This document shows, piece after piece, positions 3,277-24,024 of a DNA stretch of 64,000 bases. Origin of the DNA: Cliona cf. orientalis (Eukaryota; Porifera; Demospongiae; Clionaida; Clionaidae); the NCBI GenBank assembly GCA_963930775.1, contig OZ005690.1:13418411-13482410 (forward strand), read 5' to 3'. Under the pieces are notes generated by a model, which made no database searches, had not been told where the DNA came from, and worked only from the letters and a program-made list of their open reading frames with translations. The position numbers and the translations under genes were made by a program. Every line of letters begins with the position of its first letter. The stretch's first letter is position 1.

Positions 3277-5264
3277 ATGAGATCTTTAAGTTTAGCACTC
3301 CAAGTATCGCTCATTTGTGTCTTACTCATGCACCATATTGAAGGTAAGCTATTTATTGTATGAAGCTGTCATTTATCGTATTTTACATCTCTTAACAAGC
3401 TAGCTAGGATAAATATACATGTATAGGCTTTCTTGCAGTGATATATGAGAATTTTTCATGATAGCTACATCTATAACCCTATCACCACTGGGAATGGTGT
3501 CTGTCTGTCCTGGAGAGCAAGGTCTGTTGATTTGTGAAAGAATGTCTGGCTTCTTCTTGTACTGGAATGTTTCCATTCCTCATCTGGCTATGAGTCGTGA
3601 AACTATTATCTCAAGTGTAGGAGCTGTCAATACAACATATTTACAATTTGATGGAATACTTTCTATAGCATTTAATATCACACGTACATCCATTAGCCCA
3701 CTGACTAGCCAGATGATGATTAACAATGTGACTACTGAGATAAATGGATCAACCATCTACTGTTCAAATAGTAGTAATGAAAATGGAGCGCCAATGGCAA
3801 CAATTAATGTCATCAATGAAGGTATTGAATGATGCATGTGTTTTTGTTTGAAATTATAATTAAATCTGTTTATGATTCTTTGTGAAGTACAGAATCTAAT
3901 AATCCTCTTAATGTTACCATGGTGAATCATTTCTTGAGAAATTATGTCATTATCACACTTCAATGGCCTCGAAAGGCTGGAGCAGTTTATCACGTCAACA
4001 TATTACCAGAAACACCTCGTACTGAGCTTATCAATACAACAAGACATGACCATGTTTTGATAAATCTAACTATTTCTTATAACATTCAATACAATGTATC
4101 CATTGCATCAAGGCTCTGTGTCACTACAACCAAGGTGTTACAATTCAATTATGGTAATTAATTATATTATCCCTTATGATTCATAGAACTATAGCATTCT
4201 TTACATACTCCAGTTACCTGTGATCTACCATCACAACTGTCAGGGCGACCTATTATTCTGGACACTGGATCTCAGGAGATCCCTCACAGAGAGGGACAGT
4301 TCATCACATACACATGCCCTACTGGATTAGTTCTGACTGGACCGAATGTATCAGCGTGTACTGGGAATGGAAGATGGGAACCAGACCCTGGACAGGTGGA
4401 CTGCATAGGTGACTATGCCAATAAATAAAATCCATGGAAATGGACATATCATAATATAATAATATAATGCAGCTGACTGTGGAGTACCACAAGTGGACAG
4501 AAATGTCACACTAAACTACACTTCTACTCTGGAGGGTTCTATTTTAACACTGAGTCAGATCTGTGAAAATGACATTTCCTCTAACAGACAGATTTTCAGA
4601 CTGAGTGTGACATGTCACAGCAGTGGAAATTGGATTCCTGATCCAACTCAATTTACTTGTTCAGAGTTTACAATTGTACCACCAGGCACAGAAATATTGA
4701 TCTATTCAACTCAACATTCTTCAGGTAGCAAAACATACACTATCTACTACTGTACATGTGCATGTTTTTTTTAAATAGCTAGACACTGTTTCTACATGAT
4801 TTAAAAGATAAATTAATGATCTCATGCACTCATCCTTACATTATTCTGCCAAAAGAAACACTCAGTATCATATTATGCGCTATAATTTCATTTGTCACTG
4901 TGCACTGCACGCAGAAATCTTTGTAGTTTATGGTACAATTGTACTTCATATATAAAGATAATATTACAACGCAAATTTTCTCAAAATTTTTAATGCAGAA
5001 ACCTCATTAATGATACCAGGAACTGGAACTGCTAATTTGACAGTAGCTGTGTTCTCATCGACTATAGTTGTTGTGTGTGCTGTAAGCTCAATAGTGTTCC
5101 TTTCCGTTGGATATGCCTGTGGCTATAAGAAGAATTCATGCCACAATGAAGGATCTCAAACTCCAGGACCACTATACGAAGAATTACAGCAGAGATCTAC
5201 ACCAGAACATCAGGACCTGGTTGAACTGAAAGAGAATGTGGCCTATGGACCGATTATAAGATAA
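3277..5264 (+). CDS. Gene A: Ig-FN3-CCP-CCP single-pass receptor with tyrosine tail
   Basis: Six exons are inferred: 3277-3343, 3465-3821, 3893-4153, 4214-4408, 4473-4724 and 4999-5264. All internal junctions are phase 1 with GT-AG borders, giving 465 aa. Exon 1 is a signal peptide (about residues 1-23). Exon 2 is Ig-like (VSVCPGEQGLLICERM...LYWNV...IYCSNSS), with many N-glycosylation sequons. Exon 3 is FN3-like. Exons 4 and 5 are CCP/sushi domains (CDLP...YTCPTGL...SACTGNGRWEPDPGQVDC and CGVP...ICEND...VTCHSSGNWIPDP...FTC). Exon 6 gives a TM helix (about 391-415) and a tail of about 47 residues with PLYEEL and a C-terminal NVAYGPI, the latter matching the VxYxxI ITIM consensus. Domains and splice sites are read directly; cell-surface recognition and signalling are inferred. 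Gene B shares its ectodomain. Confidence 0.85.
3465..4770 (+). repeat. Left arm of large inverted duplication (A/B ectodomains)
   Basis: This block reappears in inverse orientation at about 8070-9370. Exon sequence and introns are both conserved: the intron at 3822-3892 is identical in both arms, and the central part (about 3540-4160) appears almost free of differences. Divergence rises towards the CCP2 exon and the outer ends. The two arms are separated by about 3.3 kb holding the unrelated 3' halves of the two genes. Confidence 0.9.
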
Positions 5265-6147
5265 GTGACTTACGTAATTATAATAATTATATGGAGACAG
5301 AATCGATATCATACATTATAATAATACTATAATACCATAAAAATTATATGAGCTAGTGTACATAAGAGTTTAAAAAGAATCGAGCAAGCCATAATTATGT
5401 TATTTGCTAATAATATTAATGTTGGAGGAGGTGACAGGCCTAGGGTGGAATTACTGTGATATGTATTAATAGTGCCATGCCTATAATAATATTATTAATA
5501 TTATTATTTTATATATACCTATAGTACCTGGACCTATACAGTTACTGTAGTATACTAGAATTAAGGCGAGAGTGTGTATATATAATTAATATAATAATTA
5601 TAACTACGTATTATATCACAATATTATTATTGCTCTTGCCGTGACTCTAGATAGCTAGGGTCTATTCAATAGCTATTATAATAATATTATTATAGAAGCT
5701 CTCACAAAAGGTTATACTATGTTTATAAAGTGGCACACACCACCACACTGTACCTATATCGATCAGTATAATATGCAGCAATAGGATGGCTTCCTACATT
5801 ATTATGCATGCACCACAACATGATATTAATACATGCACGTGCATAAATTTAAAGTTGCTGTATCCCACTACATTTCGATGGAATAGATGTGATGACAATT
5901 ATATCGCGATTTGGGAATATTTTGATGAAAGATAAATCATCTCTGAGTACATAATAATTATTATAATAATATACTATAACAATATTATTATGTATTATCA
6001 CACAAAATCATAATAATTATGTATACAAAATGGACACGTATTATGGCATTACATGCATCACACTATCCTTTGGTTTTCAGTACATTTATAACACACATCA
6101 CTGAGCATCATTGTGTATTAATTCATTCCACAGTTCCAAAGGATATA

Positions 6148-9100
6148 TCATTTTGCTGTGTATTTTGGTGGTCTAGGAGGAGCTAACATCTTTTTAGGCA
6201 CATCAGATCTGCATTATTAATATATATATACATTAATAAAGAGTAAAACACTAAGAATCTACTAGTAATTGGACTCTATTGAATTAATACCACGTACACA
6301 CGCAAGTAATTATAAAGTTATAGCTGGGTACGTACGTAGGTTATACTATAACCTACCCAGCTATAACTTTACTTGTGCTAGGTGCATAGGTCAATAATAA
6401 TGTTTTTGATCAGCATCTTGCATTGATCTATTTTGTGTGAACCTCAAATTTCACCAGAGAATTTTTTTGCAGCCACTCTCTGAGCCCCGAAACCTTGAAA
6501 GTTTAGGCAATTGCAATGTGATAGTTGTTTAATCAACTTACCCAGCTAGTGGCTTTGGAGGAAGAGGTGGTGCAGACTCATCCTCATTCTGACCACTGAT
6601 GTTGAAAGTAGTTGTCCTTGTAGTTTCCTCCCCTTGTTGAGGTAACTCCAGAGCAGTTGCGGTGAGCACTTGTTGGGTATCATCATTATCATCAACTTGT
6701 ATAGGGAGTTTTCCTGAGATATAGATTACCAACTAGGGCAATAAAATTGAATTGCTGCTTACTAAACTGCATAGTCTGTTATGATACCCTCACTGGTTGA
6801 ATAATAATGATATTCATGATTATGCATTACCCTTGATTTGATATTAACTCTCACTCTTATACTCTTAGTATTATATGTGTAGCTATGCTAGACTCAACCA
6901 TGCAGACCAAGCGAGAGAGATCTCAGAGTACTAAGTGTACCCACATGCATTGATATACATGTAATAATATTATTCATATCTATCAGAAGTGATATACCTG
7001 TTTCATAAACCATTTCAATCTCATTAGCCAGTTGCTGAATACCAGTCCTTCTCAGTGCATTAGTGACATCTCTCCAAGTTGGGCGTCCTGGGAAGTTCCT
7101 AAGCCACTGATCCAGTACCTCCACAATGCTCTCCTCAGGTGGATAGTTGGAACACTTGTCCAGAACATCTTTACTGACTTCAAGAGCCTGACCTAACTGA
7201 TACCAGTGTGGTGTTACAGCTCCTCGTACTTGGATCAGTAGAGTGTCAAGGTTGAGGGAGTCATCTTCATCAAATTTGATGGTTACATACGTATTATAAT
7301 GAACATGCAATAAAAATATCTATTTTACCAGCAACGGAATTGTGCCGCTTAGTGTCAATAGTTGCAGGTTTCTGTAAACTGTGATTCAGTACTGCATACT
7401 CCACTCTATCATCCATATCATCTGGCCTTAGAGTGACAGCGTGTTTGCCTCTCTTTTTTACAGAGGATGGTCCAATATCTGCATAAATCAGAGTAGCCTG
7501 CTGGACTACTGGGTCCACTGGCTGAACATGTTTTGATGAATTCTGCATAAGAACCATAATTTTATAATAGCTTTAGAGTAAGCAGTTCTATGTCACTGAT
7601 TGATGCTATAATAATTCTACCTCAACGTAGGAATGATAAGTATTTTCTACTTTGATGTCACTGCAAAATGAATTGAGCACAAAGGTTTAAGAATTCTAAT
7701 TCTATGTCTGCTTCTCTACATCATGGGATCCTAAAAAATTAATATCTGAGCAGCGACGTGCTGGTCTTATCATATGTCTCTAAGTCAACTTACGAGGACC
7801 TGTTAACCCTTTTTGGATGTAGAAAACCTATATAATCAAATTTTGAATGGCTTTGTAGTTCACGTATTACTTGTATTATAGTACCTTTTTTAATCAAGCA
7901 TAAAATAGCTGAAATAGCAAAGATAATGGCCATAGCACAAATTATTAGTACCCCCAGCACACCACCAAGAATTCCAGCGGTATTGCTCAACTCATTGTGT
8001 ATGACTATAGCGAAATGAAGCATAAGTGCCAAAAATTAATATTATGGTCTGTTTTAAAATCATAATAATATACATGGCATGCAATAGTAGGTAGTATGAT
8101 AAATATTTGCTACCTGAAGAATTTGGAGTTGAATGGGTCAATATTTCTGTACCTGGTGGTACAGTTGTAGATGGTGAACAGGTAAATTGAGCTGGATCAG
8201 GAATCCAATTTCCACTGCTGTGACATGTCACATTCAGTCTGAGAATCCGTCTTTCAGTGGAATTCGAAATGTCATTTTCACAGGTCTGACTCAGTGTTAA
8301 AATAGATCCCTCCAGAGTAGAAGTATTATAGCTTAATGTGACATTTCTGTCCACTTGTGGTACTCCACAATCGGCTGCATTATATAATTATATGATATTA
8401 TATCCATTTCCATGGATTTTATTCATGGGCATATAGTCACCTATGCAGTCCACCTGTCCAGGGTCTGGTTCCCATTCTCCATTCCCAGTACACACTGATG
8501 CATTTGGGCCAGTCAGTACTAATCCAGTAGGGCATGTGTATGTGATGAACTGTCCCTCTCTGTGAGGGATCTCCTGAGATCCAGTGTCCAGAATAATAGG
8601 TCGCCCTGACAGTTGTGATGGTAGATCACAGGTAACTGGAGTATGTGCATAATGCTATAGTTCTATGAATCATAATGGACAATATAATTAATTACCATAA
8701 TTGAATTGTAACACCTTGGTTGTAGTGACACAGAGCCTTGATGCAATGGATACATTGTATTGAATGTTATAAGAAATAGTTAGATTTATCAAAACATGGT
8801 CATGTCTTGTTGTATTGATAAGCTCAGTACGAGGTGTTTCTGGTAATATGTTGACGTGATAAACTGCTCCAGCCTTTCGAGGCCATTGAAGTGTGATAAT
8901 GACATAATTTCTCAAGAAATGATTCACCATGGTAACATTAAGAGGATTATTAGATTCTGTACTTCACAAAGAATCATAAACAGATTTAATTATAATTTCA
9001 AACAAAAACACATGCATCATTCAATACCTTCATTGATGACATTAATTGTTGCCATTGGCGCTCCATTTTCATTACTACTATTTGAACAGTAGATGGTTGA

Positions 9101-9460
9101 TCCATTTATCTCAGTAGTCACATTGTTAATCATCATCTGGCTAGTCAGTGGGCTAATGGATGTACGTGTGATATTAAATGCTGTAGAAAGTATTCCATCA
9201 AATTGTAAATATGTTGTATTGACAGCTCCTACACTTGAGATAATAGTTTCACGACTCATAGCCAGATGAGGAATGGAAACATTCCAGTACAAGAAGAAGC
9301 CAGACATTCTTTCACAAGTCAATAGACCTTGTCCTCCAGGACAGACAGTCACCATTCCCAGTGGAGATAGTGCTGTAGATGTACCTTCACAGTCGCTGGA
9401 GAGTAACATTATCATCATTGCTTGGAGTGTTAATATGTGATTCAGCAATAATTGGTACAT
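6148..9460 (-). CDS. Gene B: Ig-FN3-CCP-CCP receptor with ITIMs and a Death domain
   Basis: Minus-strand exons: 9460-9028, 8956-8696, 8635-8441, 8374-8114, 8004-7794, 7660-7621, 7542-7329, 7264-6998, 6713-6542, and possibly 6172-6148. Phases agree throughout, giving 692 aa. If the last intron is not spliced, a TAA at 6540-6538 ends the protein at 685 aa. Signal peptide and Ig share exon 1; FN3 and two CCPs follow. The TM (about 393-419) is in exon 5, and exon 6 is a 40-nt microexon. Exon 7 carries LIYADI (Tyr487) and VEYAVL (Tyr516), both fitting the ITIM consensus [SIVL]xYxx[ILV]. Exon 8 (about 539-627) matches a Death domain in length and pattern (HWYQLGQAL...WLRNFP...TWRDVTNALRR). The end has PPLPPKP, a class II SH3-ligand pattern. 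Function is inferred: a surface receptor linking phosphotyrosine and death-fold signalling. Confidence 0.82.
6998..7264 (-). other. Death-domain exon of gene B
   Basis: This phase 1-1 exon encodes about 89 residues. The order LDTLL..VRGAVTPHWYQLGQAL, then an acidic helix ending in EEVLDQWLRNFP-like sequence (actual text EVLDQWLRNFPGRPTW), then RDVTNALRRTGIQQLANEIE, is the classical Death-domain layout: the conserved Trp after helix 1-2, the 'W L' of helix 4-5 and the 'L...L...G...LA..I' of helix 6. Because both flanks are phase 1, the exon can be included or skipped without shifting frame. Alternative death-fold classes (CARD, DED) fit less well because of the W-x-x-L-G and TW motifs. Confidence 0.8.
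8070..9370 (-). repeat. Right arm of large inverted duplication (A/B ectodomains)
   Basis: This is the mirror copy of 3465-4770. It covers the Ig, FN3 and both CCP exons of gene B with their introns, plus about 40 bp past the CCP2 donor. Similarity stops at the leader, which has a different signal peptide and no leader intron, and before the TM exon. Only the ectodomain was therefore duplicated or homogenised. Confidence 0.9.
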
Positions 9461-16723: not shown

Positions 16724-19576
16724 ATGATCATCTCTGGAACTTTGAGGGGGATCAAGCTCACGTGGATCAGAATTGTGTGTACGATAGTTTTATTTAAGGC
16801 CAGCTCAACCAAACAAGGTACGTAATGCATGTTTTATTATTATCATTATTGCTTCCTTACTGTAACAGCTCATGAAGGGATACCCTAGCTACCAGTGAAA
16901 TCATCTGCCTAATTCAAAAGTATATGATGTGAAATTTAATGGTCTTTTGTGCTACTGTAATAATATATTATAATAGTTTACAGAGGTACCTCCATGCACC
17001 TAGCACTCTGTGTACACACAAGTAGGTTGTGGTTAGGCTCGTGGCTATTATAATAATTATAATATTATACTACCTGTCAGCTGGCATGTTGGAGCATACA
17101 TTACAGTTGATAAAAGGGTGTGGTTTGCAATATGCTATAATTTGTACTGAGACTCGAGCATTCAGCACATAATATTATGTGCTGCGATGAATCGGTTTAT
17201 GCTATAGGTTAATTGATTATCAGAGTCAAAGAGCTCTAGACACAGCTATGCAGTATCACTATGCATATAATGGAAGGGATTCAATGTCCTCATCTGTAGC
17301 GAGTCTCAGTGCCCTGTGTGTACTTTTCAATCTTTGCAGTGAATGATAGCTGTAGAAATCTCAGTAAAGATGTTAAAATGTACTTTAATTCTCAGCCATT
17401 TCAGAACAGTTATTACTGGAACCAGCTGGGGATCTGTACGTATGTCAAGGAGGAAGAATGAGAATAAGGTGTAACACAAGTGCAGCTGCTCTGCTTGGAT
17501 GGAGAGTTGCAATTCCTGGTTTTCCTCAAGAGAGAAGATTATTCGAGCTTGAAGATAATCGTGTAACGACTACACCAATAGTTGTGAATTCGGCCATTCT
17601 AAACATCTCAAGATCTTTTCCATTGGTTATAGAAATATTCACTGATAATGTAACAGCTGATCTTAATGGAGCTGTGATAACCTGTGAAGAGCAAATATCA
17701 GTTATATCAGCAAGTACCCAAATAATCTTGTCATTGATTGGAAGTGGTGGTGGAAGTGTGAACAGTAGGCGTGAATAATTATAGATTTATTACATAACTG
17801 GCATTAGTCTTTTCTCTCTTTTTTCTACAGTTTCTCCAAACGTGAATATTTCTAGAGAGTTTGAAGCTGACAGAGTGAGAGTAGCTCTGAAATGGACTCA
17901 CAAAAATGGTGTATCATATGCCATCAGAGTTGATCCTGAGGTGAATGTCAGCTACTCATGGAGGAAGAGTGCTCAACTAGTGGTGCCCTATAACACCAAA
18001 TACAATATCAGTGTTACAGCCTCCCTCTGTGGAAGAAACAGAACAATTTTTACAATAATTAAATATGGTAAGTTATACAAAATGACTATTAAATTTAGTT
18101 ATCATTACTTATGCTTGTAGCAAGGTGCCCTCGAGTAACTACTGACAACCCTGTAAGAGTTGTAACTGGTTACAGTGATCCAGCTCTAGAGGGGACTACA
18201 GTCATGCATGTTCAGCTGTCCTACTGGACTGATACTCTCCGGGTCTAGTTCATCAACTTGTATAGAAGATGGAGAATGGGAACCAGACCTTAAAGAAATA
18301 AAGTGTAAAGGTGGGTACATAGGGATAGGTAGATAATTTAAAATTTTGCCAGAATAAAAAATATTATGACTAAGCCTTACAGAATATCAGGGATGGAATC
18401 TTAGAGCTACTCCTAAAGTATTAACTTGAAAAATTATTTATTACAGTTGACTGTGGCATTCCTATGGTGAACAGTAATGTCAGTCTGAACTATAGCTCCA
18501 CTCTGGAAGACTCAGCTTATATTCCAATGTGAAGACAGACTCTTTCCAGATGGACTGTTTTCATCAAGGTGCTATCGGAATGGAAGCTGGATTCCTAATC
18601 CTTCTGGTCATGTATGTGCTACCTGATCAGCAGGTAATTAATTTTAGTAGCTACATATACAAGTGATACACATTAATTTAATTACCCTTCTTGTACTGCA
18701 GCCAATTGTGGCGATCCTCCCCCTCCCTCAGACGGTTATCTTGAGCCATATACAAGCACTTCAGAGGGGGCAAGGGTTAACAGAGTTCACGTCTGCCAGA
18801 ATGGACAAGTGGAAACTGAAGAAATTGTTTGTAACTCTGATGGACAATGGGAAGTATCCAGGAGCAGTGCTTGCACCATAAAGCCAAGTATAATTATAGA
18901 TGATAATTATTATTATTAAAATAATAATAGGGTGCCATTAGTGTCAAATTCGCTGAATACAGTGAAATTTATCTCTGATCCCTTAATTGACCTTAAATGC
19001 CCGATGATATATATGTACAGCATTTGTATACTGGTATATATATTGTTTATTATTTTTATGATGATTATGCATGCATCATTGCCTATAATCTTGAGCTCTT
19101 AATAATTATTGATGTAATTATATATGCAGATTCAAATTCTGAATCCACCGCGACTATCAGTATCATTAGTGGTACCCTGGGATCTCTATTGGCAGTGGCA
19201 TTACTGGTTTGTGGAATTCTGATTATAGTTATTGCTATTCTTAGAAAGAAAGGTAATAATACTAGGGAATTCGAAGTCGTGCAACATAATGAAATTAAAT
19301 TATTCTTAATTGAAGTATCTTAATGCTGGTATTTTGCCTGCAGGCATAGCAATGTCAAGTTCAGAAGAGCAAAAAAGTGGACAGATGAAGGTAATAAAAA
19401 TGGTATGACATCACACATAAAATTAAATAATTAGACAACTCTATTATTAGGGAAAAAATCCTGAGTATGAGGAAGTGGTGATGCCCTCGAGAAATGAAGC
19501 TGCTCATAATATTGCACAAGAAGACCTCAATATGATGCAAAATGTTGCTTATGGTCCCTTAAAGTTTCAACGATGA
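16724..19576 (+). pseudogene. Gene C: Ig-FN3-CCP3 receptor with ITIM tail, two CCP exons damaged
   Basis: Exons: 16724-16817 (signal peptide), 17396-17764 (Ig-like), 17831-18067 (FN3-like), 18121-18310 (CCP1), 18447-18633 (CCP2), 18702-18887 (CCP3), 19130-19252 (TM), 19344-19390 and 19451-19576. Borders are GT-AG and phases match A. CCP1 carries one extra base near 18208-18212, which brings TAG into frame. CCP2 has an extra base near 18520 and an in-frame TGA just before its donor. CCP3, TM and tail are intact. The tail has PEYEEV and ends NVAYGPLKFQR, with VAYGPL fitting the ITIM consensus. All exon junctions around CCP1 and CCP2 are phase 1, so skipping both would leave an open frame of 393 codons. 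It may be a decaying copy, a skipped-exon receptor, or the result of assembly indels. Confidence 0.75.
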
Positions 19577-22071: not shown

Positions 22072-22982
22072 GTAAGTATTATATATCCCACCTGATTGGC
22101 CGAAAGTCACGGGCGCATCATAGTGTACATGCATAGCAACAACCGTTCTGACCTAGCAACAATAGAATTCTGAACAGAAGAGAGTTGCACAGAATGTTAA
22201 AATTATGAATGAGTAGCTAGTTGAGTCAACCAGTGCAGAGCCAGACCAGTGCTTCAACTTTCCGTGAGTGGAAAATAGCCAGGTAGCTTCGAAACCATAT
22301 TCAAAAGTAGTTTCAATATTCAACAAACTCCTGAGCGACGGCTACTAGAGCTACGCTAACTATTAGACTGCAAAATCAGCTACATACGCTTCTTCACTGT
22401 TGAACTTTGCCACGTGGCAGAACTGCCAGATCGAGAGATAACTAATTGGTTCCTGATTAGTCTCAATTAGTGCGTGTGTGTTTCCGTATCTGTGTAAACA
22501 ATGTCTGCTGCCTATGTCACTGTGTGCATACATAACACTGTATTATAGTGTATGCAAACCATAGATGCACACACAAAGGTATGTACTACTAGAGGAATGG
22601 CAGAATAATAGCCAGAGGCTTGTAATTTAAATTTACAAGACAAGGGAAATATCAGTGATATTTCCTGGTGAATATCACAGTTAAACCATGGCTGTTGCCT
22701 AGGATACAAGGCTGATCAGGATATATAAATTATTAACATCTATGAAGCCGCAAGTAGAATTGTGAAGCCAACATCTAACTGTTTGTTAGACTCTAGCTGT
22801 CACAAATACTGTGATTTGATTGGTTAAAAACAAGGGTTCTAAGTTACTTAGAAACCCTCTACTTAGAATCCCTCTACTAAGAACCCCTCTACTTAGAAAG
22901 CTAGTTCCTTAGGCAACAACATACAAAGTGTTACTAAGCAACAGCATGCTAGAGTCTAAACAAGTTAGACACCTCAGCCAAT

Positions 22983-23086
22983 GGGATCTACAGTCTTTAG
23001 AATACTTCAGACACTTATAAAACCCTCAGGCTTCGCCTTCGGGATTTTATATCAGTGTCTTCAGTATTCTAAATCCTGTAGATCCC
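22983..23086. repeat. Palindrome GGGATCTACAGT...GTAGATCCC
   Basis: GGGATCTACAGTCTTTAGAATACTTCAGACACT is mirrored by the right arm around a CCTCAGGCTTCGCCTTCGGG centre. Adjacent are imperfect tandem copies of (G/A)A(A/T)CCCCTCTACTTAGA at about 22840-22900. It is related to 2591-2697. Confidence 0.7.
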
Positions 23087-24024
23087 TTGGCTTCAATGTC
23101 TAACTTATATGTAGCAGTCACTGCTGACCCGTTAACATACTAATGACCCTCCATTACCTCTAACTATCCCACAATCAAGTTTAATATCACGTTGCTATGA
23201 TACCTCAGGGGAGGCGGAACAGGGGGGGCAGGGGGGGCAATCGCCCCCCCAAAGTTAAGATCAGTGGGCCTTGCCCCCCCAAACTGGATTGCTATAGTTA
23301 GACCTACATTATTATTATGATGCATGTAGCTACACTGTATTTCTGGCAACTCACCTATCATCGATTCAACCAAAATTCTAAATTATGAAGGCGGACCTAA
23401 CTAGCTAGCTACAAGCTCTGTTTACTGAACTGTACTAAATATATGACATTTGTTATAAAACTTGTGGGTGCCTGACTGCCCCCCCAAACTGACCTACCCT
23501 CAGCCGCCCCTGTACCTACCAAAAATATCTATAGCCACGTGCATAAGGCTACCAGCACAATAATAATATTATTATGGCTTCTAGTAGATCTCAGTGTTAT
23601 ATATTATTATTATTTATTTATTCTTTTTAGCAATATACCCGCTTTAATTATTATACATGGATTATTGGATAATCTACTGGGTCATTCTGATATGATCTGA
23701 GCATGTAAGAAGAATGACCACCTTATAATTATATGCAGACTCATGTGCCACACAATATTATGCATGATGTATATACACACACGTGACCATCATTCTGGAT
23801 GTACGTTAATTTGGGTGCATGAATATACGGTACGGTAGCTATCCACAAGGGACTCAAGTTATAAAAGTGTTTGTGTAGGCCTACTGGAGGCTGGTGCGCG
23901 GGACTACATCAGAGCATGTATATTCAACAAATAAGAACCATAAAGGTAAGAAGATATCTGTATGAATTTTAACAGCCCTGATCGGCGCCCACAATCCAAG
24001 GACCCGGCGTTAGCCTAACGAGAC

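Follow-up and report, generated by a model that had tools for sequence, protein, structure and literature searches.

A candidate paired-receptor locus in a large clustered family of receptor genes with three tail types

The 64,000-nucleotide stretch analyzed here (the window; contig OZ005690.1, positions 13,418,411 to 13,482,410) carries two adjacent receptor-like genes, A and B, with near-identical ectodomains and unrelated tails. We think it probable, though well short of certain, that A and B belong together as a matched receptor pair, one of several such pairs within a large family of clustered receptor genes. The tails of this family are three conserved modules (A, C, and B), and its ectodomains vary widely; the membrane-distal immunoglobulin (Ig) exon of a B-type gene, whose tail bears immunoreceptor tyrosine-based inhibitory motif (ITIM)-type sequences and a Death domain, mostly has its closest match in a neighbor, usually one with another tail. 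Judging from sequence, this matching of B genes to their neighbors appears to be the mark of paired receptors whose likeness is maintained by gene conversion between nearby genes. A and B, together with the recurrent matching, look like an independent counterpart to the "paired receptors" known from vertebrate immune systems.

The window lies on a 14.8 Mb contig (C2) of a 217 Mb genome, and its genes are animal-type and intron-rich. Spliced in silico, gene A (3277-5264, + strand) has 6 exons encoding 465 amino acids (aa) and gene B (9460-6538, − strand) has 9 exons encoding 685 aa. Each of the 13 introns has GT-AG borders, and no stop interrupts either protein, so the models are clean where a preliminary reading of the letters alone (the sequence-only reading) had placed the two genes. 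They are oriented tail to tail, with ~1.3 kb from stop codon to stop codon, and have the order and phase of their ectodomain exons in common: Ig-like, FN3-like, CCP, and CCP-like. Across the exons and introns of the ectodomain, the two arms (3463-4732 and 9386-8106) are 94.8% identical over 1281 columns, and BLASTP returned no alignment between the transmembrane (TM) and tail parts of A and B at E ≤ 100; the earlier claim of near-identical ectodomains, introns included, joined to unrelated TM segments and cytoplasmic parts was thus borne out. A perfect run of 502 aligned bases (A 3667..4168, + strand; B 9182-8681) extends from the 3′ part of the Ig exon through the following intron and the entire FN3-like exon into the beginning of the intron after it. 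When the 55 mismatches were shuffled across the 1260 aligned positions, the longest run in 20,000 trials was 302; a tract beyond every shuffle is what recent gene conversion would be expected to leave behind. The Ig exons of this pair differ by four synonymous and six nonsynonymous changes (synonymous divergence, dS, of 0.05), the FN3-like exons by none, CCP1 by 7, and CCP2 by 26 (dS of 0.15).

This ectodomain recurs in a large cluster: we found at least 59 usable Ig exons, 57 of them in C2:12.6-14.0 Mb and 2 on contig C10. The list was compiled by reading 260 kb around the window directly and by DNA searches of the genome, and it is a lower bound because the searches score only part of their candidates. 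Outside the 260 kb, searches were seeded with three B-type Ig exons and the FN3/CCP1 stretch of the window. Three short copies, partial matches near 12992522 and 13185927, and a split exon near 13198447 were left out. The last of these (C2:13198447-13199014) is an Ig exon split by ~215 bases, with a 116-base part 100% identical to the Ig of B gene 13202324.

We compared the 59 Ig exons all against all and scored a match where the best Ig was that of the immediate neighbor. This was so for 8 of 12 B genes (7 with a non-B partner), 3 of 11 C genes, and 4 of 35 A genes, and all four of these A genes adjoin a B. Counted by adjacent pair, a best match joined 8 of 17 B–non-B neighbors and none of the 36 A-A, A-C, and C-C neighbors; shuffling Ig positions gave a mean of 0.43 (p ≤ 5e-5), and shuffling B labels gave a mean of 2.96 (p = 0.0006). 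Because the link between Ig and Death domain is uncertain on C10, a separate run excluded the pair there, along with one gene of unclear tail, and gave 7/17 versus 0/36 (Fisher p = 1.3e-4; label shuffle p = 0.0014). Among convergent pairs <20 kb apart (n = 7), four of the five with a B were matched, and neither of the two without a B. These include the window pair, whose Ig exons are 96.9% identical (next best, 87.1%), 13315277/13326024 (94.8%; next, ~80%), 12861513/12874741 (95.2%; next, ~87%), and 13202324/13212805 (91.5%), in which the next match of the B gene is 89.9% and the best match of the C partner is another C gene (91.6%). B-type genes also matched tandem neighbors at 13032049/13023173, 12720223/12732062, and the C10 pair (with its uncertain Ig-Death link); at the tandem pair 13545772/13555045, the best match holds from the A side only.

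In a maximum-likelihood Ig tree, six B genes are sister to their neighboring partner with strong support, whereas none is resolved as sister to another B gene. The 12 B-type rows require 12 changes on this tree (bootstrap range, 11 to 12), compared to a shuffled mean of 11.1. B tails that spread as at random, combined with B genes that are sisters of their partners, argue that tail and Ig were uncoupled in the history of the family and matched locally.

Several observations weigh against functional pairing. Since the scatter of B labels is close to random, the tree demonstrates uncoupling of tail and Ig, not selected pairing; likewise, the ratio of nonsynonymous to synonymous divergence (dN/dS) for partner Igs ranged from 0.22 to 1.27 on small counts of changes, so that purifying selection is not demonstrated for every pair. 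A fifth convergent B/C pair (13032049+/13043447−) is unmatched (85.8%; ranks 9 and 15). In pair 2, the Ig alone matches, FN3, CCP1, and CCP2 not being mutual best; pairs 3 and 4 are also alike in the FN3-like region, at ~87%, a level not out of the ordinary for this family. Each Ig search scored the best 40 of 61 to 65 candidates; as a check on ascertainment, all 40 scored of 65 candidates in a control search with an A-type Ig were already in the list. Tail types were mostly assigned by distance, with "A" as the default label: at 13293055 and 13308205 another Ig precedes the nearest A tail (13308205 also has an internal stop), and the tail of 12990698 was left as a question mark. For 7 of the 12 B genes, the tail was traced back to its Ig one exon at a time, and for four the two were linked by distance alone (~2 to 3.3 kb); in the C10 gene, ~18.5 kb separate the Ig from the Death domain, and a search of 7 kb of this interval revealed no Ig or FN3 exon. 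Two of the 14 close Death-domain tails (12601186 and 12947367) were assigned no Ig.

A first rival explanation is neutral local gene conversion, in which neighboring repetitive copies overwrite one another by chance and no functional pairing exists. A 502-base identical tract amid diverged flanks is what such a process would leave. So too, conversion without pairing would fit the A-type Ig exons at C2:12999965 and C2:13176737, 99.1% identical at a distance of 177 kb, whose likeness may reflect long-distance conversion or recent duplication and also counts against functional pairing, as well as the 5 of 12 B genes without a non-B neighbor as best match (for four, the best match is not a neighbor, and a fifth is matched to another B). 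However, non-B neighbors lie closer to each other (median start distance, 5.6 kb, versus 11.4 kb for B–non-B neighbors) yet are matched in 0 of 36 cases, so proximity alone does not explain the pattern, and two convergent A-A pairs at 4 to 9 kb are only ~78% alike. We regard purely neutral conversion as unlikely.

That the partners are instead heterodimeric co-receptors, as proposed for Botryllus FF/FcoR, seems to us more doubtful still. The layout of FF/FcoR (PMC12065747) is resembled by that of the genes described here, which are likewise adjacent Ig-plus-Sushi receptors with tyrosine motifs. Each partner here, however, has its own tyrosine-motif tail, and near-identical binding faces would fit competition or homotypic assembly better than a two-part site. 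We give very little credence to a recent inverted duplication with exchange of tail exons and no later homogenization: the arms are indeed inverted and tail types are interspersed on the Ig tree, but divergence within the window pair is uneven, from no change in FN3 through Ig to CCP2, and several matched pairs are tandem rather than inverted. An assembly artefact, with one arm a misassembled copy of the other, seems very unlikely despite the long perfect identity within an inverted repeat, because the contig is 14.8 Mb long, the arms differ outside the tract, the tails are unrelated, and matched neighbors recur at other loci.

For the pair in the window, the gene models define the parts as follows. 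In gene A (all + strand), a leader exon (3277..3343; ATG start, GT-AG model) precedes exons for an Ig-like domain (3465..3821), an FN3-like domain (3893..4153), a first CCP/Sushi domain (4214..4408), and a second, CCP/Sushi-like domain (4473..4724). In gene B (all − strand), the leader is joined to the Ig-like domain in a single exon (9028..9460), followed by an FN3-like domain identical to that of A (8696..8956), CCP/Sushi 1 (8441..8635), and the CCP/Sushi-like domain 2 (8114..8374). Because an AG sits at the same place, the B leader may be either fused to the Ig exon or spliced to it from an upstream exon.

The domain names given by the sequence-only reading fared unequally. CCP1 is above the Pfam Sushi cut-off in A and B (in the latter, within the full protein), whereas CCP2 matched Sushi only below the cut-off in 3 of 3 paralogs scanned. 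For the Ig exon, no Pfam match reached its cut-off (three of 10 members hit Ig_3, with a best E of 0.051); compared to PDB by profile, 16 of 17 among the matches listed were nanobody-, antibody-, or T-cell-receptor-type chains, with a best E of 0.0094 and nearly all others >0.3. The FN3 name found no Pfam or PDB match, and sequence pattern is its sole basis. The Ig and FN3 domains of A and B are best described as predicted folds. The Death domain of B, encoded by exon 8 (6998..7264), passed the Pfam cut-off of 22.6 bits as an isolated exon (24.2 bits), so that B counts as a Death-domain receptor by a Pfam Death match in the tail at that level, but it scored lower in a longer open frame (22.4) and in the full B protein (18.7). 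Pfam Death matched at E ≤ 0.1 in 7 of 7 Death-domain copies scanned, and a profile search gave weak matches to FADD and CRADD (E of 0.43 and above).

When proteins A and B were searched against 5.8 billion proteins, no relative of B was found, and A had one partial relative, P0001 (39% identity over 39% of A), with CCP2-like sequence and the A tail in common with A. Elsewhere in the window, positions 17405-18620 (C2:13435815-13437030, +) hold a divergent family relative of another subfamily (Ig, ~31% identity; CCP-like exons), and a repeat occurs in inverted copies at 2565-2749 and 22932-23110 (73% identity).

Family ectodomains run into three conserved tail types. The A type, encoded in gene A by exon 6 (4999..5264, + strand), consists of a TM segment and a short tail that carries PLYEEL and NVAYGPI and ends PGPLYEELQQRSTPEHQDLVELKENVAYGPI before the stop; it is strongly conserved in the 14 readable of 16 extracted tails, and ~40 related tails, counted as distinct places, occur genome-wide. 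The C type (12 matches, one with an internal stop) combines a TM unlike that of A with an A-like tail end (PTYEEI...ENAAYGHI); profile comparison supports homology between the two tail ends (probability, 87%; E = 3.8e-6). In gene B (− strand), the TM exon (7794..8004), with relatives in B2 and in five of the six further B loci retrieved, is followed by a 40-base exon (DIKVENTYHSYVE; 7621..7660) in frame with both neighboring exons, an exon with two ITIM-consensus motifs, TLIYADI and RVEYAVL (7329..7542; 19 matches in the genome), the Death-domain exon, and a proline-rich end with PPLPPKP and the stop (6538..6713; that of B2 is similar). All 10 of the B-type loci that were read letter by letter retain both ITIM-type motifs, and 14 Death-domain copies are ≥83% identical. 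The sequence-only reading had thus correctly described the short YEEL/VAYGPI tail of A as well as the two ITIM-type motifs and proline-rich end of B. We know of no described receptor that combines ITIM-type tyrosines with a Death domain in a single tail.

More Death-domain exons lie at C2:11.0-12.5 Mb, C3:4.2-4.4 Mb, and C10:7.58-7.63 Mb and on C1, C13, and C18; they are mostly ~30 to 65% identical to that of B (150 scored of 450 candidates), and the weakest matches may be unrelated Death domains. One locus (L071; C2:12540900-12545500, −) holds a B-type gene that is divergent yet has the Death domain and both ITIM-type motifs, and the A-like tail of another gene (PIYEDL...ENVAYNSI) lies just upstream on the same strand. 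At another (L069; C2:11324300-11326300, +), an A-like tail is followed ~160 bases on by a partial Death-domain exon in the same direction, perhaps a remnant of one tail type turning into another.

The likeliest mechanism would be two receptors that compete for one ligand and have different outputs. Local gene conversion would copy the Ig exon between partners, together with the FN3-like exon in the window pair, and selection would keep both partners specific for one ligand. When phosphorylated, a YxxI/L/V motif that has a hydrophobic residue at −2 is a binding site for SH2 phosphatases, Death domains recruit FADD-like adaptors, and PPLPPKP is like an SH3 ligand; B may therefore cluster when ligand binds, recruit SH2 proteins to its two ITIM-type tyrosines, and engage an adaptor through its Death domain. 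The genome has 103 exon-level SH2 matches, some with internal stops and hence not a gene count, which suggests that phosphotyrosine readers are plentiful. YEEI/YEEL resembles a Src-family SH2 ligand, NxxY a PTB-type motif, and YxxPhi an AP-2-type motif; the A or C partner, binding the same ligand, might signal, dock a kinase, or internalize via its conserved tyrosine motifs. The cell would then read the balance of the partners, as in vertebrate paired receptors.

Judged by its ITIM motifs alone, B would be the inhibitory partner. The sequence-only reading went further, likening A and B to vertebrate paired receptors with one ligand-binding face and opposing outputs and suggesting that the host is probably a sponge. 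The pairing half of that logic is strengthened by the recurrence, at other loci, of Ig matching between Death-domain/ITIM genes and other-tailed neighbors; "opposing outputs" finds no support in the canonical marks. VAYGPI in the A tail itself fits the ITIM consensus, as is the case in 14 of the 14 readable A-type tails (16 extracted, A included). By eye, charged TM residues are absent from B, from 4 of 4 C tails, and from 12 of the 13 A-type tails (that of A among them) whose TM could be read; the exception is 13305677, with an altered TM and two Asp. A canonical immunoreceptor tyrosine-based activation motif (ITAM) in the A tail was rejected, as the consensus is YxxL/I-x(6-12)-YxxL/I and YEEL and YGPI are spaced by 19 residues.

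Paired receptors are a hallmark of vertebrate natural killer and myeloid immunity. The family described here resembles the vertebrate examples (KIR, LILR, PILR, SIRP, and Siglec-11/16) in its clustered genes, near-identical ectodomains, different tails, and one ITIM partner. Siglec-11 and Siglec-16 are kept alike by gene conversion over a region that includes the binding-domain exon (PMC5701461). The vertebrate activating partner has a short tail and engages an ITAM adaptor through a charged (Arg/Lys) residue in its TM segment (PMC3533184); set against that definition, linked similar ectodomains, an ITIM partner (by motif), and the short tail of the A partner are present here, and the charged TM residue is missing. 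Unlike in vertebrate pairs, the partner here has tyrosine motifs of its own, B adds a Death domain, the ectodomain is Ig-FN3-like-CCP-CCP, and matched pairs occur several times within a single cluster.

In the Hydractinia Alr system, neither a Death-domain tail nor matched pairs that differ in their tails are known to us. Alr genes are Ig-superfamily candidates in an allorecognition complex, with ITIM/ITAM motifs (cited in PMC12065747), and are like the family here in being Ig-superfamily receptors with ITIM-type motifs. Botryllus FF/FcoR, with adjacent Ig and Sushi receptor pairs carrying ITIM, hemITAM, and YxxI/L/V motifs (PMC12065747), is the nearest invertebrate case that we found. Botryllus fester differs in having three TM segments and no known signaling domain and in its proposed pairing as a heterodimer, and the excerpted account describes neither a near-identical shared ectodomain nor a Death domain (PMC12065747). 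In a sponge transcriptome, Ig, FnIII, Sushi, and Death-domain genes respond to microbial patterns, including an FnIII-plus-Sushi gene and one with Ig domains and CARD; no receptor pair is described in the excerpted account (PMC6208332). Sponge Ig-superfamily proteins have mainly adhesion and recognition roles (review, PMC11999971), and the open-license literature, among the matches listed and as excerpted, described no such receptor pairs in a sponge.

On a broader and more tentative view, which we offer as a possibility, a non-vertebrate and perhaps non-bilaterian animal may have assembled a whole paired-receptor complex independently, by repeated local Ig conversion, with ITIM-plus-Death receptors shadowed by short-tailed partners of the same specificity; such a complex might serve self/non-self recognition or immunity and couple the balance of each pair to cell death. 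The B-type tail unites ITIM-type tyrosines with a Death domain, and the family offers candidate recognition genes in an animal group whose receptors are poorly known. Alongside the vertebrate paired receptors, it would stand as a second, independent case, one with a repeated, countable genomic signature that makes the idea testable outside vertebrates.

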